DNA from: Actinomycetota bacterium
GTDB taxonomy: Bacteria; Actinomycetota; Actinomycetes; Nanopelagicales; Nanopelagicaceae
Direction: 5' to 3'
Assembly: GCA_016870895.1 (NCBI GenBank)
Contig: VGAA01000006.1
Coordinates: forward strand, 1-34,998
Length of the DNA stretch: 34,998 bases
Each line of letters starts with the position of its first letter. Position 1 is the first letter of the stretch. Below the pieces are notes generated by a model. The model saw nothing but the letters and a program-made list of their open reading frames with translations, ran no database searches and was not told where the DNA came from. Of the stretch, positions 7,818 to 22,596 are shown piece after piece. A program made the position numbers and the translations under genes.

Positions 7818-8960
7818 GTGGCGATATTTAAAAAACCTCGAGTTAGTGCCAAATTTGCCGAGCTAAATCGGCGAAAACCTGCTGCCAAAAAGCGTGAAGA
7901 TTTTGGTAAACCAGGATTGCCAGTTGATACCACTCGCCCGTTTTACTTTGGTTTTATGGTTACCGCAGGAGCACTGGTTGCACTCACAGTTCTACAGGCA
8001 CTTGCTTCAGCTAGTGCAGTTTTTATCTTGATCATAGTCTCACTATTTCTTGCTGCTGGTTTAAATCCAGCTGTTTTGTATTTCCAAAACCGTGGCTTAA
8101 ATCGAGCTGGCTCAGTTGGTGTGGTTATGGGATTGGTTTTGTTGTTTGTCGCACTATTTATTGCCGTGGCTGCACCACCTTTAGTTGATCAAGGCAACCA
8201 ACTTATAAGTAATGCTCCTCAACTAGTAAAGGATTTAAATAATAATGCCTTTATAAATGATTTAAATAATCGATTTGGTGTGGTTGATTCTTTACAAAAT
8301 AGAATTGATTCAATAATTAAAGATGGTGAATTTGCAATTACCGCTTTTGGTGGCGTTATAGGGGTCGGTAAAGCAGTAGTTTCTGGCTTAGTATCGGCTT
8401 TAACTATATTGATATTAACTCTTTATTTTTTAGCATCCCTGCCGCAAGTGGTTCAAATTGGTTTAAAATTTGTGCCAGCAAGTAGGCGAGATCGCGTATC
8501 TAAGTTAAGTAATGCAATTATCACTAGAGTTGGCTCATTTGTTGGCGGACAAGCAATAATTGCAACTTTAGCTGCAATCTTTATTTTAAGCCTTGGCTTA
8601 ATAATTGATATGCCTTATTCAGGTCCACTGGCTATGGTGGTGCTAGTTTGTGGCTTTATTCCCTTAATTGGCCACTTTATCGGAATGACAATAGTAACCT
8701 TAGTTTCATTAACTAAATCTCCATCTACTGCAATCATTGCCCTAGCTGGTTATATTATTTATGTTCAAATTGAAAATTATTTGATCACACCAAGAATTAT
8801 GCGAAAATCATTGGCTATACCAGGATTGGTCACAATTATTGCCGCCCTATTAGGTACATCATTATTGGGTTTAGTTGGCGGTTTATTAGCTGTCCCAATT
8901 GCGGCCGCTGTATTGCTGATTTTAGATGAAGTAGTTTTTCCAAAAACCGAACAATCTTAA
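7818..8960 (+). CDS. AI-2E family transporter (GTG start)
   Basis: Multi-TM; VLVCGFIPLIGHFIGM and YVQIENYLITPRIMRKSLAIPGLVTIIAALLGTSLLGLVGGLLAVPIAA. Confidence 0.9.
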   Translation: MAIFKKPRVSAKFAELNRRKPAAKKREDFGKPGLPVDTTRPFYFGFMVTAGALVALTVLQALASASAVFILIIVSLFLAAGLNPAVLYFQNRGLNRAGSVGVVMGLVLLFVALFIAVAAPPLVDQGNQLISNAPQLVKDLNNNAFINDLNNRFGVVDSLQNRIDSIIKDGEFAITAFGGVIGVGKAVVSGLVSALTILILTLYFLASLPQVVQIGLKFVPASRRDRVSKLSNAIITRVGSFVGGQAIIATLAAIFILSLGLIIDMPYSGPLAMVVLVCGFIPLIGHFIGMTIVTLVSLTKSPSTAIIALAGYIIYVQIENYLITPRIMRKSLAIPGLVTIIAALLGTSLLGLVGGLLAVPIAAAVLLILDEVVFPKTEQS

Positions 8961-9667
8961 ACTTCAGTCGGTAGCGGCAACTTATCTGGAGCAATTACTC
9001 TTACGATCTCACTTAAGACTCTATGAACCATTGGTTCACCCACCCAAAGATGCTTTCCATCTTTAACATCAATTTGCTTGATATTTGGTACTTTAGAAAA
9101 CTTAACTCTAGCCTGATCAGGTGTTAGATAATCATCATGCTCTGGAATGAGTGCGGTAATGTGTCGGCCATCTTTTGCCCAAAAATCTAAATCTTCATCA
9201 GTGGTTGAAAGCATTGGTGGACTTAGCAGAATTAACTCTTTAATTCTTTTATCTCTGGCATACTGCAGAGCTAGCTCAGTACCAAAAGACCAGCCAATCA
9301 CATATAAATCCTTGACTTGGGCTTGAGTAAAACAGTGCTCAATAGCTGCTAACACATCTAATCTTTCAGATTTGCCGAAGTCATACTCGCCCTGACTTTG
9401 GCCCGCCTCGCTTTTTGTGCCTCTGGTATTAAATCTAATTATTTCAATTCCGGCTAAGGCTGGTAATCGATTAGCAGCCTTTTTATAGATATGAGAATCC
9501 ATCATTCCACCGCCAGATGGATTTGGATGGAGCATCAAAAGTGATGCGGTGATTTGGCTAAGTGGGGTGGCAATTTCACCAATTAAATTGAGTCCATCAC
9601 TTGTTTTAATCGTGATTGGTCTGCGGCTTGCCGGCAGTACTGTTGAAGGGCGGATTAACTCTGGCAC
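8957..9667 (-). CDS. Alpha/beta hydrolase (GTG start)
   Basis: LLMLHPNPSGGGMMDSHIYKK, VIGWSFGTELALQYA nucleophile elbow, LIPEHDDYLTP, DGKHLW. Confidence 0.88.
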   Translation of the reverse strand: MPELIRPSTVLPASRRPITIKTSDGLNLIGEIATPLSQITASLLMLHPNPSGGGMMDSHIYKKAANRLPALAGIEIIRFNTRGTKSEAGQSQGEYDFGKSERLDVLAAIEHCFTQAQVKDLYVIGWSFGTELALQYARDKRIKELILLSPPMLSTTDEDLDFWAKDGRHITALIPEHDDYLTPDQARVKFSKVPNIKQIDVKDGKHLWVGEPMVHRVLSEIVRVIAPDKLPLPTEV

Positions 9668-9689
9668 GAAAAGAGTTTACTCTTACCTC

Positions 9690-11153
9690 ATGAGCTCAGA
9701 TGCTACCTTTGAAAAGCTTGACCCAAAAACCGGTCAGTTGCAAGCAGAGTATAAAAACTTTTCTAGTAGTGAGGTTTTTGCAGCAGTCGATGCGGCACAA
9801 ATTGCTGCTAAAAGATGGCAAGAGTTTGGATTCACCGCACGCAAGCGCACCTTGCTTAAGTGGGCTTCCCATATAGCTAAAAATCAGAAAGAGATTGCAA
9901 AACTTGTTGCAACCGAGTGTGGTAAGCCACTTGGTGATGCAACCTTAGAGGTATCAATTGCAATTGATCATATTTCTTGGGCGGCAAAACATGCGCAGCA
10001 AATTTTGCGAGATCAGGTTCGCCCTTCAGGCCTATTAATGTTTAATATGAAAGCTAAAGTACAAAGATCCCCTCTTGGTGTGGTTGGAGTAATTGGTCCA
10101 TGGAATTATCCAATCTTTACACCAATCGGATCCATAGCTTATGCACTAGCTGCCGGAAATTCAGTAGTATTCAAACCATCTGAATTCACTCCTGGAGTTG
10201 GCAAGTGGTTATCTGATTCATTTTCTCAAATAGCACCATTTGAAAACATTCTTTCTACCGTTACCGGATTACCCGATACTGGAAAAGCGCTTACTGAATC
10301 GAAGGTAAACAAAATTTCATTTACTGGCTCAACTAGAACTGCTAAAAAGGTTGCCACCTCTTGTGCGCAACAAATGATTCCCGTAGTTCTTGAGTGTGGT
10401 GGTAAAGATCCAGTAATTGTGGCAAGTGATGCTGATATTAAATTAGCCGCGGAGTATTCACTCTGGTCTGCTATGGCAAATGCCGGTCAGTCTTGTATCG
10501 GAGCAGAGCGCGTATATGTTGTTGAGTCTGTGGCCGAAGAGTTCATTGAGGTGTTAACAAAAATGGCAAAAGATATTGAGGTTGGTAAAGATTACGGCCC
10601 CGCTACTATGCCATCTCAATTAAATGTCATTCAATCGCATTTAGATGATGCCAAGAGCAAGGGTGCAAAATTTCTTCTTGGTGACAATGATTCAATTAAA
10701 GGTGCATTTGTAGAACCCGTGATAATGATTGATGTACCAGAGGATTCAACTGCTATGACTGAAGAAACCTTTGGACCAACACTTGCAATTAATCGAGTAG
10801 TCAACACAGATGAGGCGATTCGATTATCAAATGCTAGTAACTATGGATTGGCAGCAGCAGTTTTCTCTAAGAAACAGGGTGAAAAAATTGCCGCTCAACT
10901 TGCTTGTGGAATGGTCTCAATCAATTCGGTGTTTTTATTTGCCGCTGTGGCATCTGTCCCGTTTGGTGGAGTTAAAAACTCTGGATACGGAAGAATTCAC
11001 GGCGCTGAAGGATTACTTGAATACACATATGCGCGTACCCTTGTAAAAACGAAATTTAAGATTCCATTAAAATTTACCACATTTAAGCGGACTAAAGTAT
11101 CTGAAAAAATACTTATTTTACTCGTCAAAAAACTACATGGAAGAAGAAAATAG
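9690..11153 (+). CDS. NAD(P)-dependent aldehyde dehydrogenase
   Basis: GVVGVIGPWNYPIFTPIGSIAYALAAGNSVVFKPSE, ISFTGSTRT, VLECGGKDP, NAGQSCIGAERVYV, EETFGPTLAI; start at ATG 9690 (MSSDATFEKLDPKTG) preferred over 9549. Confidence 0.93.
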   Translation: MSSDATFEKLDPKTGQLQAEYKNFSSSEVFAAVDAAQIAAKRWQEFGFTARKRTLLKWASHIAKNQKEIAKLVATECGKPLGDATLEVSIAIDHISWAAKHAQQILRDQVRPSGLLMFNMKAKVQRSPLGVVGVIGPWNYPIFTPIGSIAYALAAGNSVVFKPSEFTPGVGKWLSDSFSQIAPFENILSTVTGLPDTGKALTESKVNKISFTGSTRTAKKVATSCAQQMIPVVLECGGKDPVIVASDADIKLAAEYSLWSAMANAGQSCIGAERVYVVESVAEEFIEVLTKMAKDIEVGKDYGPATMPSQLNVIQSHLDDAKSKGAKFLLGDNDSIKGAFVEPVIMIDVPEDSTAMTEETFGPTLAINRVVNTDEAIRLSNASNYGLAAAVFSKKQGEKIAAQLACGMVSINSVFLFAAVASVPFGGVKNSGYGRIHGAEGLLEYTYARTLVKTKFKIPLKFTTFKRTKVSEKILILLVKKLHGRRK

Positions 11154-11154
11154 A

Positions 11155-12303
11155 TTATAAAATCTTAACGAGGCGATCAAATGCCTGATTAATTATTTCT
11201 TCACTAGTACCAAAGTTAAACCGGACAAAATTTGAATGCTTAGGTCCATATAAAATTCCAGCATTAAGAGCCAATTTACTTCGTTGTAAAATCTGCCCTG
11301 CTGGATCACTACCTAGTCCTAAAGAGCTAACATCAAGCCAAGCCAGGTAGCCAAAATCAGGGATGCGATATTTAATAGTAGGTATTTTGCTATCAATTAG
11401 CTTTTTTATTAAATTTCTATTTTCATTTAAGGTAATTAATACCCCGTCTAACCACTCATCTGATTCACTATAAGCTGCCGTAGAAGCAACTGCTCCGAAT
11501 AATGAAGCTCGCCATGTTAACGCTGGAGGCATTGAATTTATTTTCTCTTTTAGCATAGCAGACTCAGTAATTATTAACGCACACTTTAATCCTGCAAGAT
11601 TAAAAGATTTACTTGCACTAGTAATGATTATTCCAACCTCTTTTGCATCATCACTCACAGATAAGAAAGGATAAAATTGTTTTTTATTATAGGTTAAGGG
11701 GCCGTGAATCTCATCACTTAAAATAATTACACCGTACATTTTGGCTAGTGTTGCGATCTTTTCCAACTCTGATCGCGTATAGATAATTCCAACTGGGTTA
11801 TGAGGGTTACATAAGATGTGCAATTTGATGCCGTTTGCATACTCGCGCTCGATCGCATCTAAATCTAATTTATAATTTAATTCATTCTCAGCTAGTGGGA
11901 CATTAACTAAAGTGGCCTTAACCTCTGATATCCATTTCCAGATATTCTCATACACTGGTGAGTTAAGCATCACCTTATCCCCAGCCTTTATAAGAGTGCG
12001 CATTACCTCAACAATTCCAACACCAACATCAGTTGCAATTCTTATCTGAGTTGTGTCAGGTTGCCAGTTCCATTGTCGTTTAGAAAATTTAGAGAATGCC
12101 TCAAATAATTCAGGAAATGCTCCTAAGTAACCAGTATCTGATCTATCTAGCATATCTTGCAGGCTAGCTTTAACAGCAGGTGCAATTGGAAAATCCATTT
12201 CGGCAACTGGTAGAGGCAAAACATCGCTTGGATATTGTCGCCACTTTGAGCTCTTTCGCTTACGTAATTCATCAAGCTCTAGTGCGCGCACTGGTTTGGT
12301 CAT
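11155..12303 (-). CDS. PLP-dependent aminotransferase, MalY/PatB (cystathionine beta-lyase) type
   Basis: KRKSSKWRQYPSDVLPLPVAEMDFPIAP, HILCNPHNPVGIIYTRSEL, LSDEIHGPLTY, ITSASKSFNLAGLKCALII. Confidence 0.9.
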   Translation of the reverse strand: MTKPVRALELDELRKRKSSKWRQYPSDVLPLPVAEMDFPIAPAVKASLQDMLDRSDTGYLGAFPELFEAFSKFSKRQWNWQPDTTQIRIATDVGVGIVEVMRTLIKAGDKVMLNSPVYENIWKWISEVKATLVNVPLAENELNYKLDLDAIEREYANGIKLHILCNPHNPVGIIYTRSELEKIATLAKMYGVIILSDEIHGPLTYNKKQFYPFLSVSDDAKEVGIIITSASKSFNLAGLKCALIITESAMLKEKINSMPPALTWRASLFGAVASTAAYSESDEWLDGVLITLNENRNLIKKLIDSKIPTIKYRIPDFGYLAWLDVSSLGLGSDPAGQILQRSKLALNAGILYGPKHSNFVRFNFGTSEEIINQAFDRLVKIL

Positions 12304-12345
12304 AGTTGCAAGTATGCCACTAAAACAAACTTGTAATAAATATAT

Positions 12346-13122
12346 TTAGTAAGTAGCACGTCCACCTGAAATATCAAAGGTAAAGCCAGTGGTAAATGAA
12401 CAGGCTTTAGATCCCATAAAGGCAATCATCTCTGCAACTTCAATAGGCTCACCTAATCGGCCAGCCGGAATCTTTGAAATCATATAATCCAAAGTTTCCT
12501 TAGCTGTGTTGACATTTATTGGCGTAGCGATTACTGCCGGCGCGAGTGAGTTAATAGTGATGCCATCGGTGGCAACCTCTTTTGCCACACCTTTAACAAA
12601 ACCGATCAAGCCAGATTTTGCTGTGTTGTATGGGGCCATCTTTGGGTTGCCCTCTTTACCGGCAATCGAGGCAACTTGAACAATTCGACCATACTTTTGC
12701 TTTTTCATAATTGGTAGCACATATTGGGTTAACCAAATTGCGCCAAACAAATTTACTGAAATTACTTTTTGATAATCATCCCAATCTATATCTTCAACAA
12801 ATTTTCCGGTAGGACCTGGATAACCAGCACAATTAATAAGGGCATCGATTCTCTTATGTTTACTTGCACTTGAGGAAATAAAATCTTTGATTGCACTTTG
12901 GTTTGAAATATCAAGTAGAGCGCTCTCAGCATAATTTCCAGCAGAGGTAATAGTTGCAACTACCTCATCTAAGCCAGGTTGATTTAAATCTGCGCAAATG
13001 ACCTTAGCTCTCCGAGCAGCGATTAATTGTGCTGCAGATCTGCCGATACCACTTGCTGCCCCAGTAACGATTACTACCTGGTCTTGATATGAGGTGTTCG
13101 CAAATGCACTGTTGTCACTCAT
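12346..13122 (-). CDS. SDR-family oxidoreductase (candidate sugar / keto-deoxy sugar acid dehydrogenase)
   Basis: VIVTGAASGIGRSAAQ, INCAGYPGPTG, YNTAKSGLIGFVKG, C-terminal FDISGGRATY; start at second Met just downstream of a promoter-like motif. Confidence 0.88.
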   Translation of the reverse strand: MSDNSAFANTSYQDQVVIVTGAASGIGRSAAQLIAARRAKVICADLNQPGLDEVVATITSAGNYAESALLDISNQSAIKDFISSSASKHKRIDALINCAGYPGPTGKFVEDIDWDDYQKVISVNLFGAIWLTQYVLPIMKKQKYGRIVQVASIAGKEGNPKMAPYNTAKSGLIGFVKGVAKEVATDGITINSLAPAVIATPINVNTAKETLDYMISKIPAGRLGEPIEVAEMIAFMGSKACSFTTGFTFDISGGRATY

Positions 13123-13131
13123 TATTATCCG

Positions 13132-13160
13132 ATTATACTTGCCCAACAGTTAAATCTAAA
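13132..13160 (-). promoter_or_regulatory. Sigma70-type promoter for the SDR gene, leaderless geometry
   Basis: Minus strand TTTAGA (13155-13160), 17 bp spacer, TATAAT (13132-13137), 9 nt before ATG at 13122. Confidence 0.6.
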
Positions 13161-13180
13161 ATGATTTGAATGGAGCATTC

Positions 13181-14104
13181 ATGGCAAATTGGCCAAGTAC
13201 CCGAGATCCAAAAGGACCAATGAAGCGCTCAATTGGAATTTTAAACAAGCAAAAAATTCAATCTCAAGATGCAGATGTATTGCCCGAATCAGCCAAAAGA
13301 TTTGCTGATGGTTCACGATATAAAATTGAAATTCCATCTGTAGAAGGCCCAATAGCATTTAAAACCGTAGTAGATGAGGCCAAAAAACATAAATTAATTA
13401 TTCATCGAATCTCCCAAGGCTCTGGAATTATGATGCAAACCGATGCTGAAATTAAGCAGATGGTGACAATTGGAAAAAAGGAAAAAATTGAGGTCTGTTT
13501 ATTTGTGGGACCAAGAGCGGCTTGGGATATTGGCAAGCAGGTATCGGCTACAGCTGGTGTAATTGCCTCGCCAACACTTCGCGGAGCTGATCAACTTAGA
13601 TACGCACTAGAGGATGTAATCCATGGTGTTAACTTAGGATTACGCAGTGTGTTGGTAGGTGATCTTGGATTACTTAAGGTTTTAGGGCAGGCAAAAGTTA
13701 AGGGAGATCTACCAAAAGAGTTAATTCTTAAAACTTCAGTTGCCTTAGTGTGTAATAACCCAGCAACGGCGGCACTGCTTGAGGATTTAGGGGCCTCAAC
13801 TTTGAATTTGGCAACTGATCTATCTTTGCAACAGATTTCAGCAATTAGATCACAAGTAGATATTCCAGTTGATATCTATGTTGAAGGACCAGATGATTTT
13901 GGTGGCGCAGTTCGTCACTATGAAACACCAGATTTGGTTCGAGTAGCTGCCCCGATCTATTTGAAATTTACTATTAGAAACTCCCCTGGACTTTATCCAT
14001 CAGGTGCTCATATTCAAGGACTAGTTGAATCTTCTGCCAAAGAGCGAGTTCGCCGGGCAGCAATTAGTAAGGCGATATTAGATAGATATGGATTCAAAAA
14101 ATAG
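13181..14104 (+). CDS. TIM-barrel-like protein resembling U32 peptidase family, without the usual Cys cluster
   Basis: LKTSVALVCNNPATAALLEDLGASTLNLATDLSLQQISAIRSQVDIPVDIYVEG resembles the U32 N-x-x-A...LG...LSLxEI pattern; start MANWPSTRDP. Confidence 0.55.
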   Translation: MANWPSTRDPKGPMKRSIGILNKQKIQSQDADVLPESAKRFADGSRYKIEIPSVEGPIAFKTVVDEAKKHKLIIHRISQGSGIMMQTDAEIKQMVTIGKKEKIEVCLFVGPRAAWDIGKQVSATAGVIASPTLRGADQLRYALEDVIHGVNLGLRSVLVGDLGLLKVLGQAKVKGDLPKELILKTSVALVCNNPATAALLEDLGASTLNLATDLSLQQISAIRSQVDIPVDIYVEGPDDFGGAVRHYETPDLVRVAAPIYLKFTIRNSPGLYPSGAHIQGLVESSAKERVRRAAISKAILDRYGFKK

Positions 14105-14809
14105 ATGAGTACCTCCGGTAACTTGAAACTCTTAATTTTTGGTGGCACCGGTGTATTAGGGACAGCTATTGCCGATAAGTTTAAGGAACACGGTTATGAG
14201 GTGACTTATGGTGTTCGAAAAGTTACTAATCCAAAGAATCAATTTCTGCTACCGGTAACTGAAGCTCCAGTACCAGAGCTATTAAAGGGTGAATTATTTG
14301 ATGCTGTAGTTTTTGCGCAAGGGGCAAATATAAATGACTCAGTTATAAATAACTCGCTAGAGGATTTCAATAGATTATTTGAAGCTAATGTAACTTTTAT
14401 TAGCCAGACAACTAAAGCATTGATCTCTCATAATTTGATTAAACATAAAGCAAAAATTGTTATTTTGAGTTCATTTTGGGAGCAGTTAACCCGCCAAGAC
14501 AAGATGTCCTATACCGTGACTAAAGCAGCAGTGGGTGGCTTAGTTAGATCTATGGCAGTTGATTTGGGAAATGCTAAAAGTATTTTGGTAAATGGCTTAC
14601 TACCTGGAGTAGTGGACTCGCCTATGGCCAGAGGATTACTTAAGCCAGAGCAGATCGAGAATGTGCAGTGGCAAACTCCAGGACATAAAATGGTCATACC
14701 AAGTGATGTTGCTAGCGCCACCTATCTGCTTGGATGCGAAGAAAATACGGCAATTTCAGGTCAATCACTCTTTGTAGATTATGGCTTTTCAATAGCTAGA
14801 GTTCTTTAG
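14105..14809 (+). CDS. SDR-family oxidoreductase
   Basis: LLIFGGTGVLGTAIADKF, VILSSFWEQ, SYTVTKAAVGGLVRSMAVDLG; abuts upstream stop. Confidence 0.88.
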   Translation: MSTSGNLKLLIFGGTGVLGTAIADKFKEHGYEVTYGVRKVTNPKNQFLLPVTEAPVPELLKGELFDAVVFAQGANINDSVINNSLEDFNRLFEANVTFISQTTKALISHNLIKHKAKIVILSSFWEQLTRQDKMSYTVTKAAVGGLVRSMAVDLGNAKSILVNGLLPGVVDSPMARGLLKPEQIENVQWQTPGHKMVIPSDVASATYLLGCEENTAISGQSLFVDYGFSIARVL

Positions 14810-14820
14810 GATCTCACCGA

Positions 14821-15810
14821 GTGAGTGTTGAGTTACTAACCAAAGATAGCGTAGTTGATTACTTAATTAGTAAAAAAATTATTTCATTACAAGATAACCC
14901 AGAGGTTGAGGTTTTAACTGGTGGGGTATCAAATGTAGTTTTAGCAATTACAACTAGTAATCAGAAAATGGTCTTAAAACAAGCTTTAGCGGAATTAGCG
15001 GTGAGTGAAAAATGGGTGGCAGATCAACGAAGAGCTATTGTAGAAGCTGATGCAATTGAATTGTTTAATGAAATAAGCCCAAAGCAAGTTCCTAAGTTAT
15101 TATTTTTGGATCCAGATAGATTTGTTTTGGTCTTAGAAAGAGTGGCGCTAGGTAGCACAGTTTGGAAATCTGATTTATTAGCTGGGGTAATAAACCCTGA
15201 TATCGGCGCGAAGTTAGGCCACACACTTGCCAGCTGGCATAACTATGGGCAGCAGAATCCAAGTGCAAAAGATAAATTTATGGAGGACTCTCTGTTTGAC
15301 CAACTGCGAATTGATCCATTTTATCGATTTGTGGCCGATAAAAATCCATCATTGCAGGTGTGGATTCGAAAGTTAATTAATGAGTTAGAGGGTGATAAAA
15401 CCAGTATTGTCCATGGTGATTTTTCGCCAAAAAATATTATGATTTCAATGAGTGATGAAGTTTTTATCTTAGATTTTGAGGTCACTCATGTTGGTAACCC
15501 AGTTTTTGATATCTCCTTTCTTATCGCTCATCTTTTATGTAAATTTTTCCACGCACCAGATGCACTGCAAGCAAATTTATTAGCAAAAACAGCTACTGCC
15601 TTCAAGAAAGAGTATGAGGTGCTTAGGCAGATATCCCCATCATTTGCCCATCATGCAGCCTTAATTGCGCTGGCGCGAGTTGAGGGAAAATCACCAGTTA
15701 ATTACCTCACCCCAAATCAACAACATAAATTACAAAAACATACTAAATCTTTATTAGCCCGTGATGCTAAGTTATCTTTACTTGATCTATTTGAAATGAG
15801 CACTCGATGA
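14821..15810 (+). CDS. APH-family phosphotransferase (small-molecule kinase; GTG start)
   Basis: VHGDFSPKNIMIS and FILDFEVTHVGNPVFDISFLIAHL; Lys-containing N-lobe (MVLKQAL). Confidence 0.85.
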   Translation: MSVELLTKDSVVDYLISKKIISLQDNPEVEVLTGGVSNVVLAITTSNQKMVLKQALAELAVSEKWVADQRRAIVEADAIELFNEISPKQVPKLLFLDPDRFVLVLERVALGSTVWKSDLLAGVINPDIGAKLGHTLASWHNYGQQNPSAKDKFMEDSLFDQLRIDPFYRFVADKNPSLQVWIRKLINELEGDKTSIVHGDFSPKNIMISMSDEVFILDFEVTHVGNPVFDISFLIAHLLCKFFHAPDALQANLLAKTATAFKKEYEVLRQISPSFAHHAALIALARVEGKSPVNYLTPNQQHKLQKHTKSLLARDAKLSLLDLFEMSTR

Positions 15811-17078
15811 AGATAAGTAAATTAATTGGGTATCAGGTATTAGATTCCCGAGGTAGACCAACGGTAGCGGCATCAATTTCACTATCTGATGGCACATCTC
15901 ATACCGCTCGAGTTCCTTCTGGTGCTTCAACTGGTAAGCATGAAGCGAAAGAGTTACGTGATCTAGGTGGGCAGTACGTTGAAAAGTTTTATGCCGGCCT
16001 TTCAGTTAAACAAGCTGTTGAGAATATAAACCAAGTAATTGCACCCCGCTTAGTTGAGGAGTTAGTAGATTTAGTGGCGATTGATAATCATTTGATTGAG
16101 TTAGATCCTTCGCCAGATCACGCCAAGTTAGGAGCAAATGCAACGCTGGCAGTTTCTTTAGCTACTAGCATTGCTGCTGCGCACTCTCAAAATAGATCAC
16201 TAGCTAGATATTTTCAACCAGAGTCTTACCTAAAAATTCCAATGCCGATGGTCAATATTCTCTCTGGTGGCGCTCATGCAAATAAAGTGATGGATATTCA
16301 AGATTTATTGATTGTGCCAATAGGAGCTACCTCATTTACCCAAGCCCTCTCTTGGATCGTAGCAATTCGCGAAACCGCATCAGAATTGGGAAAGCAAGCT
16401 GGCTTTGTAAGTAATTTAATTGCCGATGAGGGTGGTTTAGCAATTCCATTTGACTCAGTTAGTAAGGCATGTGAGTTTGTAATTAGCGCTATTGAAAAAT
16501 GTGGCCTAATAGCAGGTGAGCAAGTGAGCTTAGCCTTGGATGTTGCCTCTACTCAATTTTTTGAGGATGGTAAGTATAATTTAAAAAATGCAAAACAGAG
16601 CTATTCCTCTGATCAATTTGTAACGTATATAAATAATCTAGTTTCTAACTACCCAATCGTCTCCATAGAAGATCCTTTTGCAGAGGATGATTGGCTTACC
16701 TGGCAAAAATTTATGCAGGTGGCACCTAAAAAACTTCAAGTATTAGGCGATGATTTATTAACCACAAATCTGGCTAGGCTAAATCGGGCGATTGAAGAGA
16801 AAAGTGCGAACTCAATATTAATTAAAGCTAATCAAAATGGTCTAGTTTCTTCCACATTAAATGTTTTGAAACAGGCACGGGCAAATAACTTCAATACCGT
16901 AGTCTCAGCCCGATCAGGTGAGAATGAGGACTCTTGGTTGGCAGATTTAGCAACTGGTTGGGCAGCTGGCCAAATTAAAGTTGGCTCTACCCATGGCAGT
17001 GAAAGAAATTCCAAGTGGAATAGATTGCTAGAACTTGAAGTTATTGAAAATACTAAGTTTATAAATCCGTTTAATTAA
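15807..17078 (+). CDS. Divergent enolase paralog (enolase superfamily, enolase-proper fold)
   Basis: VLDSRGRPTVAA, VPSGASTGKHEAKELRD, LGANATLAVSLA, MVNILSGGAHANKVMDIQDLLIVPIGA, IADEGG, SLALDVA, VSIEDPFAEDDW, LGDDLLTTN, ILIKANQNG; SARSGENED replaces canonical SHRSGETED. Confidence 0.92.
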   Translation: MKISKLIGYQVLDSRGRPTVAASISLSDGTSHTARVPSGASTGKHEAKELRDLGGQYVEKFYAGLSVKQAVENINQVIAPRLVEELVDLVAIDNHLIELDPSPDHAKLGANATLAVSLATSIAAAHSQNRSLARYFQPESYLKIPMPMVNILSGGAHANKVMDIQDLLIVPIGATSFTQALSWIVAIRETASELGKQAGFVSNLIADEGGLAIPFDSVSKACEFVISAIEKCGLIAGEQVSLALDVASTQFFEDGKYNLKNAKQSYSSDQFVTYINNLVSNYPIVSIEDPFAEDDWLTWQKFMQVAPKKLQVLGDDLLTTNLARLNRAIEEKSANSILIKANQNGLVSSTLNVLKQARANNFNTVVSARSGENEDSWLADLATGWAAGQIKVGSTHGSERNSKWNRLLELEVIENTKFINPFN

Positions 17079-18811
17079 TGTGAATGACGTGGTACGTAGT
17101 CGCCACTGCTACCTACTAGAAAATCAAGATCTGCTCCCAGGTGAGCTTGCTGAACATGTTCAATATACATTTTGCTCCAGCCACGATCTACCTTAGGTTT
17201 TGGTGGTACCCAAGCAGCTTTTCGCTTTACTAACTCATCTTCTGAGATCAATAAGTTTAATTTTCTATTTGGTACATCTAATTCGATTTCATCACCATTC
17301 TCAACAAAAGCTAATGGACCACCTGCAGTTGATTCTGGCGAGACATGTAAAACTACAGTTCCATATGCTGTGCCACTCATTCTGGCATCAGAAATTCTGA
17401 CCATATCGGTAACACCTTGTTCCAACATTTTCTTTGGCATAGGAAGATTTCCGACCTCAGGAAAACCTGGATAGCCCTTAGGTCCAGAATTTTTTAATAC
17501 CAAAATCGTATCTGGTGTAACTGGAAGATCTGGATCATCTGCAACCTTTAAATACTCTTCTATTTCATTAAACACTAAAGCCTTACCTTTATGGGTAAGT
17601 AATTTTGGTGTCGCAGCTGAAACTTTAATGATTGCTCCATTTGGTGCAAGTGAACCTCGGACTACAACAATGCCGGCGCCGGCTGCCTGAAATGGCTTAT
17701 TAGCTGGGGTAATAACCTCTTTATTCCAATTTTCAGCCCCTTCAATGTTTTCCTTAACAGTTTTACCTGTAACAGTAATGTGATCGGTGTGAATTAAGTG
17801 CGAAATTTCCTTCATTACCGTTGGGACGCCACCGGCATCAAAAAACTCTTCCATTAAGAATTTTCCACTTGGCATCATATTTGCAATTACGGGAACATCT
17901 TTACCTAACTTATCAAAATCATCTAAATCAAGCGGCACGCCAACTCGGCCTGCGATAGCCAATAAATGGACAACAGCGTTGGTCGAGCCACCGATTGCTG
18001 CCAATATTTTTATCGCATTTTCAAATGCTTTTCTATTTAATACTTTAGAAAGTTTTAAATCTTCTTCAACCATCTTTACAATTCTGCGTCCAGAAAGATG
18101 AGCGAGCGCAAATTTTCTAGAATCCACCGCAGGTATTGCAGCTGCTCCTGGTAATTGAACTCCCAATGCCTCGGTCACACATGCCATCGTTGAAGCGGTT
18201 CCCATAGTCATACAAGATCCCTGGCTTCGGGCTGAGCAGGACTCCATTGCCATAAACTCTTCAAAAGATATCTTGCCACTTCTAACCTGTTCGCTATATT
18301 TCCAAACTAATGTGCCAGAGCCAACTGCTTCACCATGGTATCTACCATTTAACATCGGACCGCCAGTAATCATTAGTGCTGGCAGATCAACGCTGGCAGC
18401 TCCCATTAACAACCCAGGTGGTGTCTTATCGCAATTTCCAAGCAGAACTACACCATCTAATGGATGAGATCTTATTAACTCTTCAACTTCCATAGCTAAC
18501 ATATTTCGATAAAGCATTGTGGTTGGTCGTTGCAAAGACTCACTTAGTGACATGGCTGGGAACTCAAGAGGAAATCCACCCGCCTCCCAAACACCACGCT
18601 TGACTGCTTCAGCGACATCATTTAATGAACCATTGCAGGGATTTAACTCCGACCAGGTATTTGCGATACCAATTACAGGCCGGCCATCAAATACATCTGG
18701 GGCATACCCTTGATTACGTAATCGCTCACGGTGGATATAGCCACCCTTATCCTTTAACCCAAACCAGTACTGGCTGCGGCGATCAAACTTTTCTTCGCTC
18801 AAGCCAGCCAC
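17075..18811 (-). CDS. IlvD/Edd-family sugar-acid dehydratase, L-arabinonate dehydratase-like (GTG start)
   Basis: FDGRPVIGIANTWSELNPCNGS, LLGNCDKTPPGLLMGAASVDLPALMITGGPMLNG, GSCMTMGTASTMA, NAIKILAAIGGSTNAVVHLLAIAGRVGV, VRISDARMSGTAYGTVVLHVSPESTAGGPLA, QQAHLGADLDFL. Confidence 0.9.
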   Translation of the reverse strand: MAGLSEEKFDRRSQYWFGLKDKGGYIHRERLRNQGYAPDVFDGRPVIGIANTWSELNPCNGSLNDVAEAVKRGVWEAGGFPLEFPAMSLSESLQRPTTMLYRNMLAMEVEELIRSHPLDGVVLLGNCDKTPPGLLMGAASVDLPALMITGGPMLNGRYHGEAVGSGTLVWKYSEQVRSGKISFEEFMAMESCSARSQGSCMTMGTASTMACVTEALGVQLPGAAAIPAVDSRKFALAHLSGRRIVKMVEEDLKLSKVLNRKAFENAIKILAAIGGSTNAVVHLLAIAGRVGVPLDLDDFDKLGKDVPVIANMMPSGKFLMEEFFDAGGVPTVMKEISHLIHTDHITVTGKTVKENIEGAENWNKEVITPANKPFQAAGAGIVVVRGSLAPNGAIIKVSAATPKLLTHKGKALVFNEIEEYLKVADDPDLPVTPDTILVLKNSGPKGYPGFPEVGNLPMPKKMLEQGVTDMVRISDARMSGTAYGTVVLHVSPESTAGGPLAFVENGDEIELDVPNRKLNLLISEDELVKRKAAWVPPKPKVDRGWSKMYIEHVQQAHLGADLDFLVGSSGDYVPRHSH

Positions 18812-18922
18812 TATCCAATCTTTTTTACACTCTCAAATAATGAGAATCACCCTGTGTTAAGGTTTTCATATTCTAGTTCAAATGAGTCAAAAGTTCATCT
18901 GCGACGAAAGAAGAAGGTAAAA

Positions 18923-19786
18923 ATGAGAATTGCCCGCCTAGGCCAGATTAATCAAGAAAAGCCAGCTGTGATTGTTTCCGATACCGAGGCGGTCTTTATT
19001 GATGATGTGATCTCTGATTTCAACCGCATTGAATTAGAGAATTCAGCAATCTCTAAAATTGAAAAATTAGATTTAAGTAGCAGGCCTAAGGTAAAAATTT
19101 CTGATTTTAGAATCGGTTCACCAGTTGCAAGACCGACAAAAGTAATTTGCGTTGGCTTAAATTATGCAAAGCATGCAGTTGAATCTGGTATGACTGCGCC
19201 AGCTGAACCAGTAATTTTCATGAAGGCGCCCGATACGGTAATTGGTGCCAATGATGATGTAGTTGTGCCACCAAACTCTCAAAAAACGGATTATGAGGTT
19301 GAACTTTGTGTAGTCATTGGTAAAAATGCTCTTTATTTGAAATCACCAGCAGATGCTGAATCTCATATTCTTGGCTACACAATTTCTCAAGACATTTCAG
19401 AGCGTCATTGGCAGATTGAGCGCAGTGGGCAATGGGTAAAGGGCAAATCATTTCCAACCTTTAATCCAATGGGCCCGTGGATCGTTACCAAAGATGAGTT
19501 AGCTAAAAATGGTTTAGACCCAAGTAATCTGGCGTTAAGTTGCACAATTGATGGTGAGGTAAGGCAAAACTCAAGAACTGATGATTTAATTTTTGGAATT
19601 AATCATTGCGTTTGGTACATCTCTCAGTTTATGGAGTTAAAGGCTGGAGATGTAATTAATACTGGAACTCCTGCTGGGGTGGGGATGGGATTTAAGCCAG
19701 AAAAATACTTAAAGGGTGGGGAAAATATTGTTACCACTATTGAAGGTATTGGAACTATTAAAAATAAGGTTGTAAATTACAAGTAA
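18923..19786 (+). CDS. Fumarylacetoacetate hydrolase-family protein (candidate diketo-deoxy sugar acid hydrolase or keto-deoxy sugar acid dehydratase)
   Basis: VICVGLNYAKHAVESG, VVVPPNSQKTDYEVELCVVIG, GYTISQDISERHWQ, KSFPTFNPMGPWIV, VINTGTPAGVGMGFKP; start MRIARLG at 18923. Confidence 0.9.
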   Translation: MRIARLGQINQEKPAVIVSDTEAVFIDDVISDFNRIELENSAISKIEKLDLSSRPKVKISDFRIGSPVARPTKVICVGLNYAKHAVESGMTAPAEPVIFMKAPDTVIGANDDVVVPPNSQKTDYEVELCVVIGKNALYLKSPADAESHILGYTISQDISERHWQIERSGQWVKGKSFPTFNPMGPWIVTKDELAKNGLDPSNLALSCTIDGEVRQNSRTDDLIFGINHCVWYISQFMELKAGDVINTGTPAGVGMGFKPEKYLKGGENIVTTIEGIGTIKNKVVNYK

Positions 19787-21313
19787 CTAATTAATTGCCT
19801 TCTTGCTTCTTTCAGAGTTAATAACTCGCTCAATGCCATAAGGGTTGGCGTTTTGTAACTCTTTTGGAAGTTTATTATCTGGGAAATTTTGATAAACCAC
19901 AGGTCTAACAAATCTATAAAGTGCATCCAATCCAACTGAGGTGGTATGAGTAGAAGAGGCTGGCCACTGTCCGCCGTGGTTTTGCGCAGCTGTAACCGAT
20001 ACTGCCGTAGGAAAACCATTCCAAATTACTCTACCAGCAATTTGTGATAGCTGATCTACCAAATCTTTCACATTCTCATCAGCACCGGCATGAATTGCTG
20101 CGGTTAATTGCCCTTGCATAGATTTTGCAACCTTTAGGTACTCATCAAATGGCGTACGAATTATTACTGAAGTTGGACCAAAGTGCTCTTCTAGTAAATC
20201 CTCATGATTTTTTACATCAGACCAATCGGTGACAAAAATATTGGCCGTAACACCATATCCATCGCTATTGCCGATACTGGAGATAATCTCTAACCCTTTT
20301 GATTTTGATAACTTTGAAATAGCATCTTTAAACCTAGTAGCAATTCCTTTATTTAATAATGGTGCAACCTTTTGTTGAGCTACATACTCTTTTACCTGTG
20401 AGATAAATTTATCGCCATTATCATCATTTGGCACAATAATTATTCCTGGCTTTGTGCAAAACTGCCCAGAACCAAGTAATGCTGAATCGATAGCTGCTTT
20501 AGCTAATTCATCAGCTTTTTCACTTAACGCAGTTGGGGTAAAGAAAACTGGATTCAATGATCCCATCTCGGCATAAACTGGTATTGGTACTGATCGCTCT
20601 TGCGATAAGCTAATTAATAATTTTCCAACCATGGCAGATCCAGTAAAACCAATTGCGTTCACCTCTGGCGCCTTAGCCAGCCAATGAGTAATCTCTGGAT
20701 TTTCTCCTTGGATGATGGCAAATAATTCTTTTGGCAATCCTTGTGATGTAAGGCCCTTTATAACTGCTTCATAAACGATCTGACTGGTATTTGGATGTGA
20801 TGGGTGCGCTTTAACAATTACTGGACAACCTGCAGCCAGCGCTGAAGCGCTGTCACCTCCGGCGACAGAAAATGCCAATGGAAAGTTTGATGCTGCAAAT
20901 ACCGCAACTACACCTAGTGATTGCTGAGATTTTCTTAAGTCAGGACGAGCAACTGGTAGAAAATTTGGATCTGCCAAATCAATAATAGGTAAAAGATGTC
21001 CGCCATCCTTAACTAAATTAGCAAATGATCTAATTTGAATAACTGTCCGCATTACTTCACCACTTAACCTTGGCAGTGGTAGAGCTGTCTCTAAATTGGC
21101 AGTTTGAGCCAAATTATCCTTTTCGGCCTCGATCGCATCTGCAATCGCATTTAATACTGCAGCTCGCTGCGTTGGCGTTGTTGCTGAAAGTTTCTGTTTA
21201 GCATTCGCAGCAGCCTTGATCGCAGCAATGGTCTGTTTCTGATCCCATTCCAAGATTTCAGCGCCCACCGACTGACCAGTGGCTGGATTTTTCGCGGTAA
21301 ATGTTTTACTCAT
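19787..21313 (-). CDS. Aldehyde dehydrogenase, 2-oxoglutarate-semialdehyde dehydrogenase-like
   Basis: GVVAVFAASNFPLAFSVAGGDSASALAAGCPVIVKAHPSHPNTS, GFTGSAMVGKLL, AEMGSLNPVF, GSGQFCTKPGIIIV, EEHFGPTSVII. Confidence 0.88.
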   Translation of the reverse strand: MSKTFTAKNPATGQSVGAEILEWDQKQTIAAIKAAANAKQKLSATTPTQRAAVLNAIADAIEAEKDNLAQTANLETALPLPRLSGEVMRTVIQIRSFANLVKDGGHLLPIIDLADPNFLPVARPDLRKSQQSLGVVAVFAASNFPLAFSVAGGDSASALAAGCPVIVKAHPSHPNTSQIVYEAVIKGLTSQGLPKELFAIIQGENPEITHWLAKAPEVNAIGFTGSAMVGKLLISLSQERSVPIPVYAEMGSLNPVFFTPTALSEKADELAKAAIDSALLGSGQFCTKPGIIIVPNDDNGDKFISQVKEYVAQQKVAPLLNKGIATRFKDAISKLSKSKGLEIISSIGNSDGYGVTANIFVTDWSDVKNHEDLLEEHFGPTSVIIRTPFDEYLKVAKSMQGQLTAAIHAGADENVKDLVDQLSQIAGRVIWNGFPTAVSVTAAQNHGGQWPASSTHTTSVGLDALYRFVRPVVYQNFPDNKLPKELQNANPYGIERVINSERSKKAIN

Positions 21314-21360
21314 TTGCTAACTATAACTTAGTAGTTTTAATTATAAATTCTAAATTTATC

Positions 21361-21681
21361 TCAATATTTAGGAGCATTCCGAGTTCTTTCGATCTTAGGC
21401 CTACGTAAATTGCGCTTACTCCAGCAAATACTATGCCAATGACGCCTGCCATCTTGATCATGCTCTAACCAAGCGACTGTGTGCGGAGTAGCCATCGGAA
21501 TTAATTGGTCACATCCTGGGCAACGGTATGGTTTATTTGAGGAGGAACCACTGATCTTCCTGACTATATAAACCCCATCATCATGCTCTTCAATTGCATC
21601 ACTGGCAGTTGTGATCTCATTCTCATCAAAATTATTTGAGGGCTTACTCTTGCCTTTTGGCTTATTTCTACGGGGACTCAC
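21361..21681 (-). CDS. Small actinobacterial protein with CPGC...H...C putative Zn-binding motif
   Basis: PYRCPGCDQLIPMATPHTVAWLEHDQDGRRHWHSICW; likely GTG start (VSPRRNKPKG) at 21681. Confidence 0.7.
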   Translation of the reverse strand: MSPRRNKPKGKSKPSNNFDENEITTASDAIEEHDDGVYIVRKISGSSSNKPYRCPGCDQLIPMATPHTVAWLEHDQDGRRHWHSICWSKRNLRRPKIERTRNAPKY

Positions 21682-21738
21682 AGGCTTATTCTCCCAATTA
21701 AATTGAGTAATCAATACCAATTAGGGAAAGATGTCGCC

Positions 21739-22596
21739 ATGAGCACTAATCCAGCAATACAGGTACGTGGCTTAGTAAAAAAATATGGTGATAAGACCGC
21801 TGTTGCCGGCATCGACCTTACAGTCGAGCAAGGTGAGATTTTTGCTCTTCTGGGCCCAAATGGCGCTGGTAAAACAACTACTGTTGAAATTTTAGAGGGG
21901 TATCGCAGCGCAAACTCTGGTGAGATAAAGGTATTGGGGTTTGATCCAGCCACTAAAGGAAGTGCAGCTCAAAAGTGGCGTAATAAGATAGGAATAGTTT
22001 TGCAGTCAGCAAATGATGCTGCTGATTTAACGGTAATAGAAACTGTTTCTCACTTTGCAAATTACTTTGATAATCCAAAGGGTACACATCATGTAATTAA
22101 TGCGGTTGGGTTAAGCGATAAAGAAAATTCAAAGACCAGGCAGTTATCAGGTGGTCAACGTAGAAGATTAGATGTGGCCCTTGGCATTATCGGCTCGCCA
22201 GAGCTGCTCTTTTTAGATGAGCCAACAACTGGCTTTGATCCAGAGGCTAGAAGATCTTTTTGGGATTTAATTCGAACCTTAAAATCAGAAGGAACTACGA
22301 TTCTTCTAACCACCCACTATCTTGATGAAGCACAAGAGCTTGCTGATCGAGTTGGCGTAATAAACAATGGAAAGATAATTGAAATAGCACCACCTACAAC
22401 TTTAGGTGGTAGAAATAATGCGCCGGCTAAAGTTATCTGGTTAGAAAATGGAGTAAACAAAGAAATACTTACCACCAACCCAACTGATGAGGTTATTAAG
22501 TTAAATAAGCAATTTAATGGCCCAATTCCAGAGCTGCAGGTGCTCAGACCAAATCTTGAAGAGATTTATTTAAGAATGATTGGCGAGTTAAAATGA
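21739..22596 (+). CDS. ABC transporter ATP-binding protein
   Basis: LLGPNGAGKTTTVEIL Walker A, RQLSGGQRRRLDVALGI signature, LLFLDEPTTGFD Walker B; start MSTNPA. Confidence 0.95.
   Translation: MSTNPAIQVRGLVKKYGDKTAVAGIDLTVEQGEIFALLGPNGAGKTTTVEILEGYRSANSGEIKVLGFDPATKGSAAQKWRNKIGIVLQSANDAADLTVIETVSHFANYFDNPKGTHHVINAVGLSDKENSKTRQLSGGQRRRLDVALGIIGSPELLFLDEPTTGFDPEARRSFWDLIRTLKSEGTTILLTTHYLDEAQELADRVGVINNGKIIEIAPPTTLGGRNNAPAKVIWLENGVNKEILTTNPTDEVIKLNKQFNGPIPELQVLRPNLEEIYLRMIGELK

Follow-up and report, generated by a model that had tools for sequence, protein, structure and literature searches.

What does a bacterium gain from a second enolase gene placed directly behind a small-molecule kinase gene, in the midst of genes for sugar-acid breakdown? 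The question is raised by a stretch of 34,998 nucleotides (nt), here called the window, from an Actinomycetota bacterium of the family Nanopelagicaceae, the acI lineage (GCA_016870895.1, VGAA01000006.1, positions 1-34,998). The source genome, from a freshwater or brackish bacterium, measures 681 kb and is 64% complete. Four genes in the window are at issue, the last of them an enolase paralog that we call ENO2:

13181..14104, plus strand: U32-like TIM-barrel protein (Pfam, AlphaFold2, neighbourhoods)
14105..14809, plus strand: SDR1, a short-chain dehydrogenase (SDR) with a YxxxK motif (adh_short), the usual partner of the U32-like gene
14821..15810, plus strand: APH-fold small-molecule kinase, distantly like methylthioribose kinase, with a GTG start (APH, PF01636)
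15807..17078, plus strand: ENO2 (Enolase_N and Enolase_C; TIGR01060, eno)

Our answer, drawn from sequence comparison, is that the core of the locus is probably a kinase-enolase module set in a non-phosphorylative sugar-acid catabolic cluster, where it would convert an acid fragment to phosphoenolpyruvate (PEP) or a close homologue. The first-pass annotation had described four tightly packed plus-strand genes, and the open reading frames do lie that way: the U32-like gene and SDR1 abut (0 nt, 14104/14105), and the kinase and ENO2 overlap in an ATGA at 15807-15810. The gap between SDR1 and the kinase had been given as 12 nt and is in fact 11 nt. The longest reading frame of the U32-like gene is 13166..14104 with a TTG start, and the ATG at 13181 is the preferred start because homologues align from its Met.

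By profile, ENO2 is an enolase. It scores 417 bits against TIGR01060 (cut-off 300), with both enolase domains matched, and is 43-48% identical to canonical enolases. The idea that it is the only enolase of its genome was ruled out by the canonical copy at G000:C12 (448 bits versus 263), and it is because of this separate enolase that ENO2 counts as a true paralog. Its general base, its general acid and its metal, phosphate and carboxylate ligands are retained; in yeast numbering, these include K345, E211, K396, H159, R374 and S375 alongside the metal ligands. Among kinase-linked enolases generally, 13 of the 15 residues lining the yeast site are unchanged where aligned. The list of 15 is established structural knowledge, with the equivalents of E168, E211, K345, R374 and S375 confirmed as ligands (PMC4450660). 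The two that differ are E168, which is D166 in ENO2 (window 16302), and H373, which is A368 (window 16908). Both substitutions, E168D and H373A, occur in every one of the 21 kinase-linked enolases tabulated (18 plus 3, with only part of the sequence for Rhizobium RCAM05350) and in the other acI copies of ENO2 that were aligned. All six canonical controls keep E168 and H373; these were the enolases of yeast, the own genome, E. coli, Azospirillum lipoferum (beside pgk/gap), Paraburkholderia (beside tpiA) and Cupriavidus EM10. The kinase-linked proteins also carry N155S/G and G209A, a QD / SARSG signature marks them as a subfamily, and in an unrooted maximum-likelihood tree a 100/100 branch parts them from the canonical enolases.

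Both E168 and H373 stand on the C3-hydroxyl side of the site. Since the two changes fall there and the ligands of phosphate and carboxylate, the base and the acid are kept, they suggest a substrate that differs at C3, or that presents C3 differently as a C2 epimer would, and not a dead enzyme. On a plainer account, the APH protein would add a fourth kind of D-glycerate 2-kinase, non-homologous to the others, and ENO2 would be an additional, co-regulated enolase that acts on D-2-phosphoglycerate (2-PGA) and feeds PEP. This account would explain why ENO2 lies over the enolase equivalog cut-off, it agrees with the scarcity of other glycerate kinases in ENO2-bearing acI genomes, and Rhizobium loci that combine a D-2-hydroxyacid dehydrogenase, APH, ENO and PEP carboxylase do resemble the hydroxypyruvate-to-oxaloacetate limb of the serine cycle. 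We nevertheless consider it unlikely. A canonical enolase match is present in each of the 36 family genomes that bear ENO2; E168, which contacts 2-PGA in solved enolase structures (PMC4450660), is changed together with H373 in every kinase-linked enolase seen; and a simple isoenzyme needs no active-site change that is fixed across domains of life. The invariance of E168D and H373A would thus argue against the plain isoenzyme.

The partnership of the two genes was followed in a survey of 113 family genomes with a completeness of at least 90%, to which the own genome was added. ENO2 was found in 36 of the 113 and the kinase in all 36, the two being adjacent except at contig breaks (G601, G673); a contig ends beside one further kinase (G657), and genus g9 contributes three genomes with a diverged kinase-ENO2 pair. 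Outside the family the pair occurs without the U32-like gene and SDR1 in Rhodococcus, Embleya, Rhizobium, Paracoccus, Sphingobium, Azospirillum, Methylobacterium and haloarchaea. When 297 genomes of the phylum were searched, the top two kinase matches outside the family (G332, G346) proved to lie beside the top two enolase matches, at a distance of 24-36 nt, and each of these genomes carries a second enolase; the weaker kinase matches in G426 and G452 have no enolase paralog alongside. A tblastn search placed the kinase in 32 plasmid records, and 21 of the 25 listed sites have an enolase match within about 6 kb (two Haladaptatus records were left out of this check), with Rhizobium RCAM05350 as an additional case. 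On the Cupriavidus P-10 record the enolase is 40 kb from the kinase. The annotated loci were those of Sphingobium, Methylobacterium, Rhizobium (two), Paracoccus, Rhodococcus (two), Haladaptatus and Halomarina. Far from being confined to one locus, then, the kinase and ENO2 are linked within the family, in other phyla and in haloarchaea, and from this pattern we regard them as functionally linked.

Some of these loci have features of their own. The serine-cycle-like rows of the Rhizobium plasmids (L140 17644-22465, L153 17889-22719) set kinase, D-2-hydroxyacid dehydrogenase and PEP carboxylase side by side, with the altered enolase a few kb off. On the Haladaptatus (L143) and Halomarina (L148) plasmids the pair adjoins a cupin and a paralog of ketol-acid reductoisomerase (IlvC) amid several enzymes of the mandelate-racemase (MR) family. 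A PPDK-like gene at L159 (1730-5338) has a more distantly related APH kinase as its immediate neighbour, and there is no enolase paralog among the matches from that genome.

The kinase itself is a clear member of the APH superfamily, with a PF01636 match, HGDxxxxN at window 15412, a metal-binding Asp at 15472 and the invariant ATP-site Lys at 14977. A role in methylthioribose salvage was rejected on score, 76.5 bits against a cut-off of 275 for methylthioribose kinase (TIGR01767), and on context, no methionine-salvage genes being seen in the neighbourhood. Three classes of glycerate kinase have been described (PMC2063504). A Pfam search with the kinase gave no match to Gly_kinase (PF02595), to DUF4147/MOFRL or to a PF00485-type P-loop domain, and judged by its domains it belongs to none of the three. 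Fourteen ENO2-bearing genomes, the incomplete own genome included, were tested for the known classes: class I is absent from 13, only G621 having one, and class II from all 14. Because of this distribution the APH protein may be the missing glycerate kinase of these genomes. Set against genomes without ENO2, three of eight of which have a glycerate kinase, the count of none in the 13 other than G621 is suggestive only.

The setting of the four genes gives the next clue. Around them the window holds the following:

17075..18811, minus strand: IlvD/EDD-family aldonate dehydratase (NCBIfam NF009559, NF004784)
18854..19786, plus strand: FAH-superfamily protein, top NCBIfam match 2,4-didehydro-3-deoxy-L-rhamnonate hydrolase, below cut-off
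19787..21313, minus strand: aldehyde dehydrogenase, nearest to 2,5-dioxovalerate / ketoglutaric-semialdehyde dehydrogenases (KGSADH), far under their cut-offs
12346..13146, minus strand: SDR0, a divergent SDR with a likely start near 13122, candidate 2-keto-3-deoxy-acid 4-dehydrogenase or aldose dehydrogenase

The first-pass annotation had placed the four genes beside sugar-acid catabolic genes, and the adjoining IlvD, FAH, SDR and aldehyde dehydrogenase bear this out. The IlvD gene is convergent to ENO2 with a 4-nt overlap; its product reaches 863.9 bits against the 882 required for L-arabinonate dehydratase (NF009559) and exceeds the cut-off of the subfamily NF004784. The FAH protein has the His-x-x-Glu dyad (H107AVE) described for acylpyruvate hydrolases (PMC6336799), a dyad kept in the FAH proteins of acI, Paracoccus and Rhizobium. 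The SDRs of the window, examined for the role of 2-keto-3-deoxy-acid 4-dehydrogenase, match at the level of the SDR family, with no specific equivalog over cut-off. The kinship of the aldehyde dehydrogenase to the ketoglutaric-semialdehyde enzymes is only distant. In the gap between SDR0 and the U32-like gene there is one promoter-like site per direction, 13112-13139 (plus) and 13160-13132 (minus), at a region-wide frequency no higher than chance, and an Rfam search over 8900-21800 gave no matches. A PatB-like C-S lyase gene (11155-12303) is at the same place in some relatives and missing in others.

The same surroundings recur in the relatives. The order U32-SDR1-APH-ENO2 returns in dozens of family contigs, most of those recovered, at 46-98% identity, and for that reason is not a matter of chance; the U32-like gene of the metagenome-assembled genome (MAG) BACL4 is 98% identical to that of the window. 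Nearly always the family loci adjoin IlvD, FAH, SDR0 or a KGSADH-like aldehyde dehydrogenase, and those of further relatives add apparent genes for SMP-30 lactonase, MR-family dehydratase, KDG kinase, KDPG or DHDPS aldolase and sugar ABC transporters, several named by eye from sequence and some confirmed. These recurrent neighbours therefore make sugar-acid catabolism the setting of the four genes. Five MAG records titled Bifidobacterium breve or Streptomyces griseus (L035, L043, L048, L059, L068) hold acI-type loci in the same order, and the titles are probably wrong. The pair keeps such company again in the orders MR dehydratase-APH-ENO-SDR (L158), APH-ENO-SDR-FAH (L147) and APH-ENO-FAH-SDR (L141, L155). 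PEP carboxylase lies near the pair in two Rhizobium loci, and PPDK-like genes do so in L072 and L128 (by eye, from N-terminal sequence only); both fit PEP as the product.

From these parts a route can be drawn. IlvD, to judge by its family, would dehydrate an aldonate to a 2-keto-3-deoxy acid, which an SDR and the FAH protein would oxidise and cleave, as in Route III, to pyruvate and a short acid; alternatively, the U32-like barrel might do the cleaving. Among the short hydroxy acids and aldehydes that could form the second fragment, glycerate and glyceraldehyde are the most plausible; from a hexonate it would be glycerate. The APH kinase would phosphorylate the hydroxy acid at O-2. In ENO2, Lys340 (yeast K345) would then abstract the C2 proton and Glu208 (yeast E211) expel the C3 hydroxyl, giving what is predicted to be PEP or a close homologue. 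O-2 phosphorylation followed by beta-elimination is the natural reading because the pair is conserved, stands in sugar-acid clusters and keeps the catalytic residues of ENO2; the logic of kinase, O-2 phosphate and enolase-type dehydration put forward in the first-pass annotation draws its support from the same three observations, the linkage being one that spans phyla. As the sole changed contacts, E168D and H373A, are on the C3-hydroxyl side in every member examined, we think that ENO2 naturally serves some glycerate left alone by the housekeeping enolase, either L-glycerate or one substituted at C3, for instance a tetronate.

One could also imagine that the pair acts on an intact C4-C6 aldonate, phosphorylating it at O-2 and, by elimination, forming a 2-keto-3-deoxy acid as its enol phosphate, which would be an ATP-linked substitute for a sugar-acid dehydratase. 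On the C3 side, the missing His side chain and the shorter acid in place of Glu might make room for the longer chain, and the pair can stand directly after a sugar ABC transporter. The same cluster, however, usually contains an IlvD or MR dehydratase already, and PEP is the product suggested by the PEP carboxylase and PPDK-like genes close by; we find this version rather improbable.

Several points weigh against the route from an unusual glycerate to PEP. Its substrate is read from the neighbourhood and from two residues, numbered on a yeast enolase ruler, for which E. coli enolase and PDB 4yws give the same residues. D-2-hydroxyacid dehydrogenases adjoin the pair in Rhizobium, Rhodococcus and Sphingobium, which would fit a D-acid, and if that acid were D-glycerate a normal enolase could already serve. 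In the apparent operon AraA-ABC-APH-ENO2, with L-arabinose isomerase (L097, L124-L127, Planktophila-like), there is no obvious source of glycerate, and at L128 an ordinary glycerate kinase adjoins the pair. The D-acid neighbours and the residue changes point different ways, so that D-glycerate, L-glycerate and tetronate are all candidate substrates.

Do all four genes serve this one route? A single pathway of four genes had been proposed at first. The conserved order in acI speaks for it; the separation of the genes elsewhere does not, and the unit is better described as two modules, kinase with ENO2, and the U32-like barrel with sugar-acid dehydratases. A close U32 copy is present in only 22 of the 36 ENO2-bearing family genomes. 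APH-ENO2 without the U32-like gene and SDR1 is found in L096, L097 and L120-L130 as well as in the other phyla. On its own, the pair follows an MR-family gene in L120-L123, L128, L130 and L136 and AraA with a sugar ABC transporter in L097 and L124-L127, while in L133 and L134 it lies close to GlcDF, an RraA-like gene and an ABC transporter. Partial combinations also exist, U32-SDR1 without APH-ENO2 (L070), U32-APH-ENO2 without SDR1 (L132) and SDR1-APH-ENO2 without U32 (L131). A linear scheme in which the U32-like protein and SDR1 feed the kinase directly would account for the strict order in most acI loci, but these separations leave it improbable in our view.

The U32-like protein is the least assigned of the four. 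Its sole Pfam match is Peptidase_U32 (PF01136), at 33.6 bits above the gathering score of 22.4 and spanning only 85 residues; 28 of 29 U32-like members match this family at E<=1. AlphaFold2 gives a confident eight-stranded barrel (predicted local distance difference test score, pLDDT, 87.9). The fold resembles generic TIM barrels at template-modelling (TM) scores of 0.41-0.49, the U32 protein Mk0906 being the best and class II fructose-bisphosphate aldolases, methylisocitrate lyase and KDPG aldolase being among the others, and matches so generic do not establish an aldolase. Searches of PDB sequences with the single sequence and with a profile returned nothing significant, and no conserved cysteines were seen in its alignment (A1). 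Given this Pfam match and this best fold match, the protein might be a U32 protein of the peptidase-like or RNA/quinone-modifying kind that is present in the cluster by chance. That is very unlikely, in our opinion, since the U32 match is only partial and the gene keeps company with sugar transporters and with dehydratases of the MR or IlvD type in Actinobacteria and Thermomicrobium. Without the kinase and enolase, it adjoins or lies near such dehydratases in about two thirds of the distant loci examined, and in Thermomicrobium it is likewise found with a dehydratase. Our guess from this neighbourhood is that the barrel takes as its substrate either a sugar acid or the 2-keto-3-deoxy acid from the adjacent dehydratase, a new aldolase being one possibility. 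A distant U32-like protein (30% identical) follows a phosphotransferase on an Enterobacter plasmid (L144 8886-10903), together with aminotransferase, nucleotidyltransferase and major facilitator superfamily genes, in a cluster that looks unrelated to sugar acids.

Taken at its widest, the proposal is that a cross-domain enolase subfamily and an APH-fold 2-kinase form an entry to PEP or a homologue from an unusual glycerate, with the U32-like protein as a new sugar-acid enzyme; in this full form we offer it tentatively, as something that may quite possibly hold. The folds and the pathway logic are already known, and what we call new is an enolase subfamily that is widespread and set apart from the rest, together with an unassigned step. 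No description of the kinase-ENO2 pair, of an L-glycerate kinase or of a U32 sugar-acid enzyme was found in the open-access papers searched, which is weak evidence given that limit. Enolase is regarded as among the most functionally uniform of enzymes, and 'phosphopyruvate hydratase' is the name that databases give to the kinase-linked copies. If a subfamily tied to a kinase has the same pocket change throughout Bacteria and Archaea, this would imply numerous errors among enolase annotations, and the maps would lack a sugar-acid route to central metabolism, including those of the acI Actinobacteria, which are abundant in fresh water. Through the two changed contacts, the idea of a specialised enolase can be tested directly.

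It is worth setting the system beside its known counterparts. With enolase (EC 4.2.1.11) ENO2 shares the fold, both domains, the metal ligands, the base, the acid and the phosphate and carboxylate residues; it differs in E168D, H373A, N155S/G and G209A, and in being kinase-linked wherever its context was examined. Carboxyphosphonoenolpyruvate synthase of phosphinothricin biosynthesis is likewise a functionally diverged enolase paralog and is not known to have a kinase partner; ENO2 has one, and no phosphonate genes were seen nearby. The kinase has the fold, the HGDxxxxN motif and the metal-binding Asp of methylthioribose kinase and the APH superfamily without reaching the TIGR01767 cut-off. 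The lower limb of the branched or non-phosphorylative Entner-Doudoroff pathway (PMC2063504) follows the same logic of glycerate to 2-phosphoglycerate to PEP, but the acI kinase would fall outside the three known classes and the enolase is a dedicated paralog. The non-phosphorylative Route III likewise brings together an IlvD-type dehydratase, an SDR and a FAH hydrolase with the HxxE dyad in one cluster. As published for pentoses and deoxyhexoses in Herbaspirillum, that route ends at glycolate or lactate (PMC6336799), and to it the acI cluster adds a kinase and a modified enolase, putatively for the second fragment.

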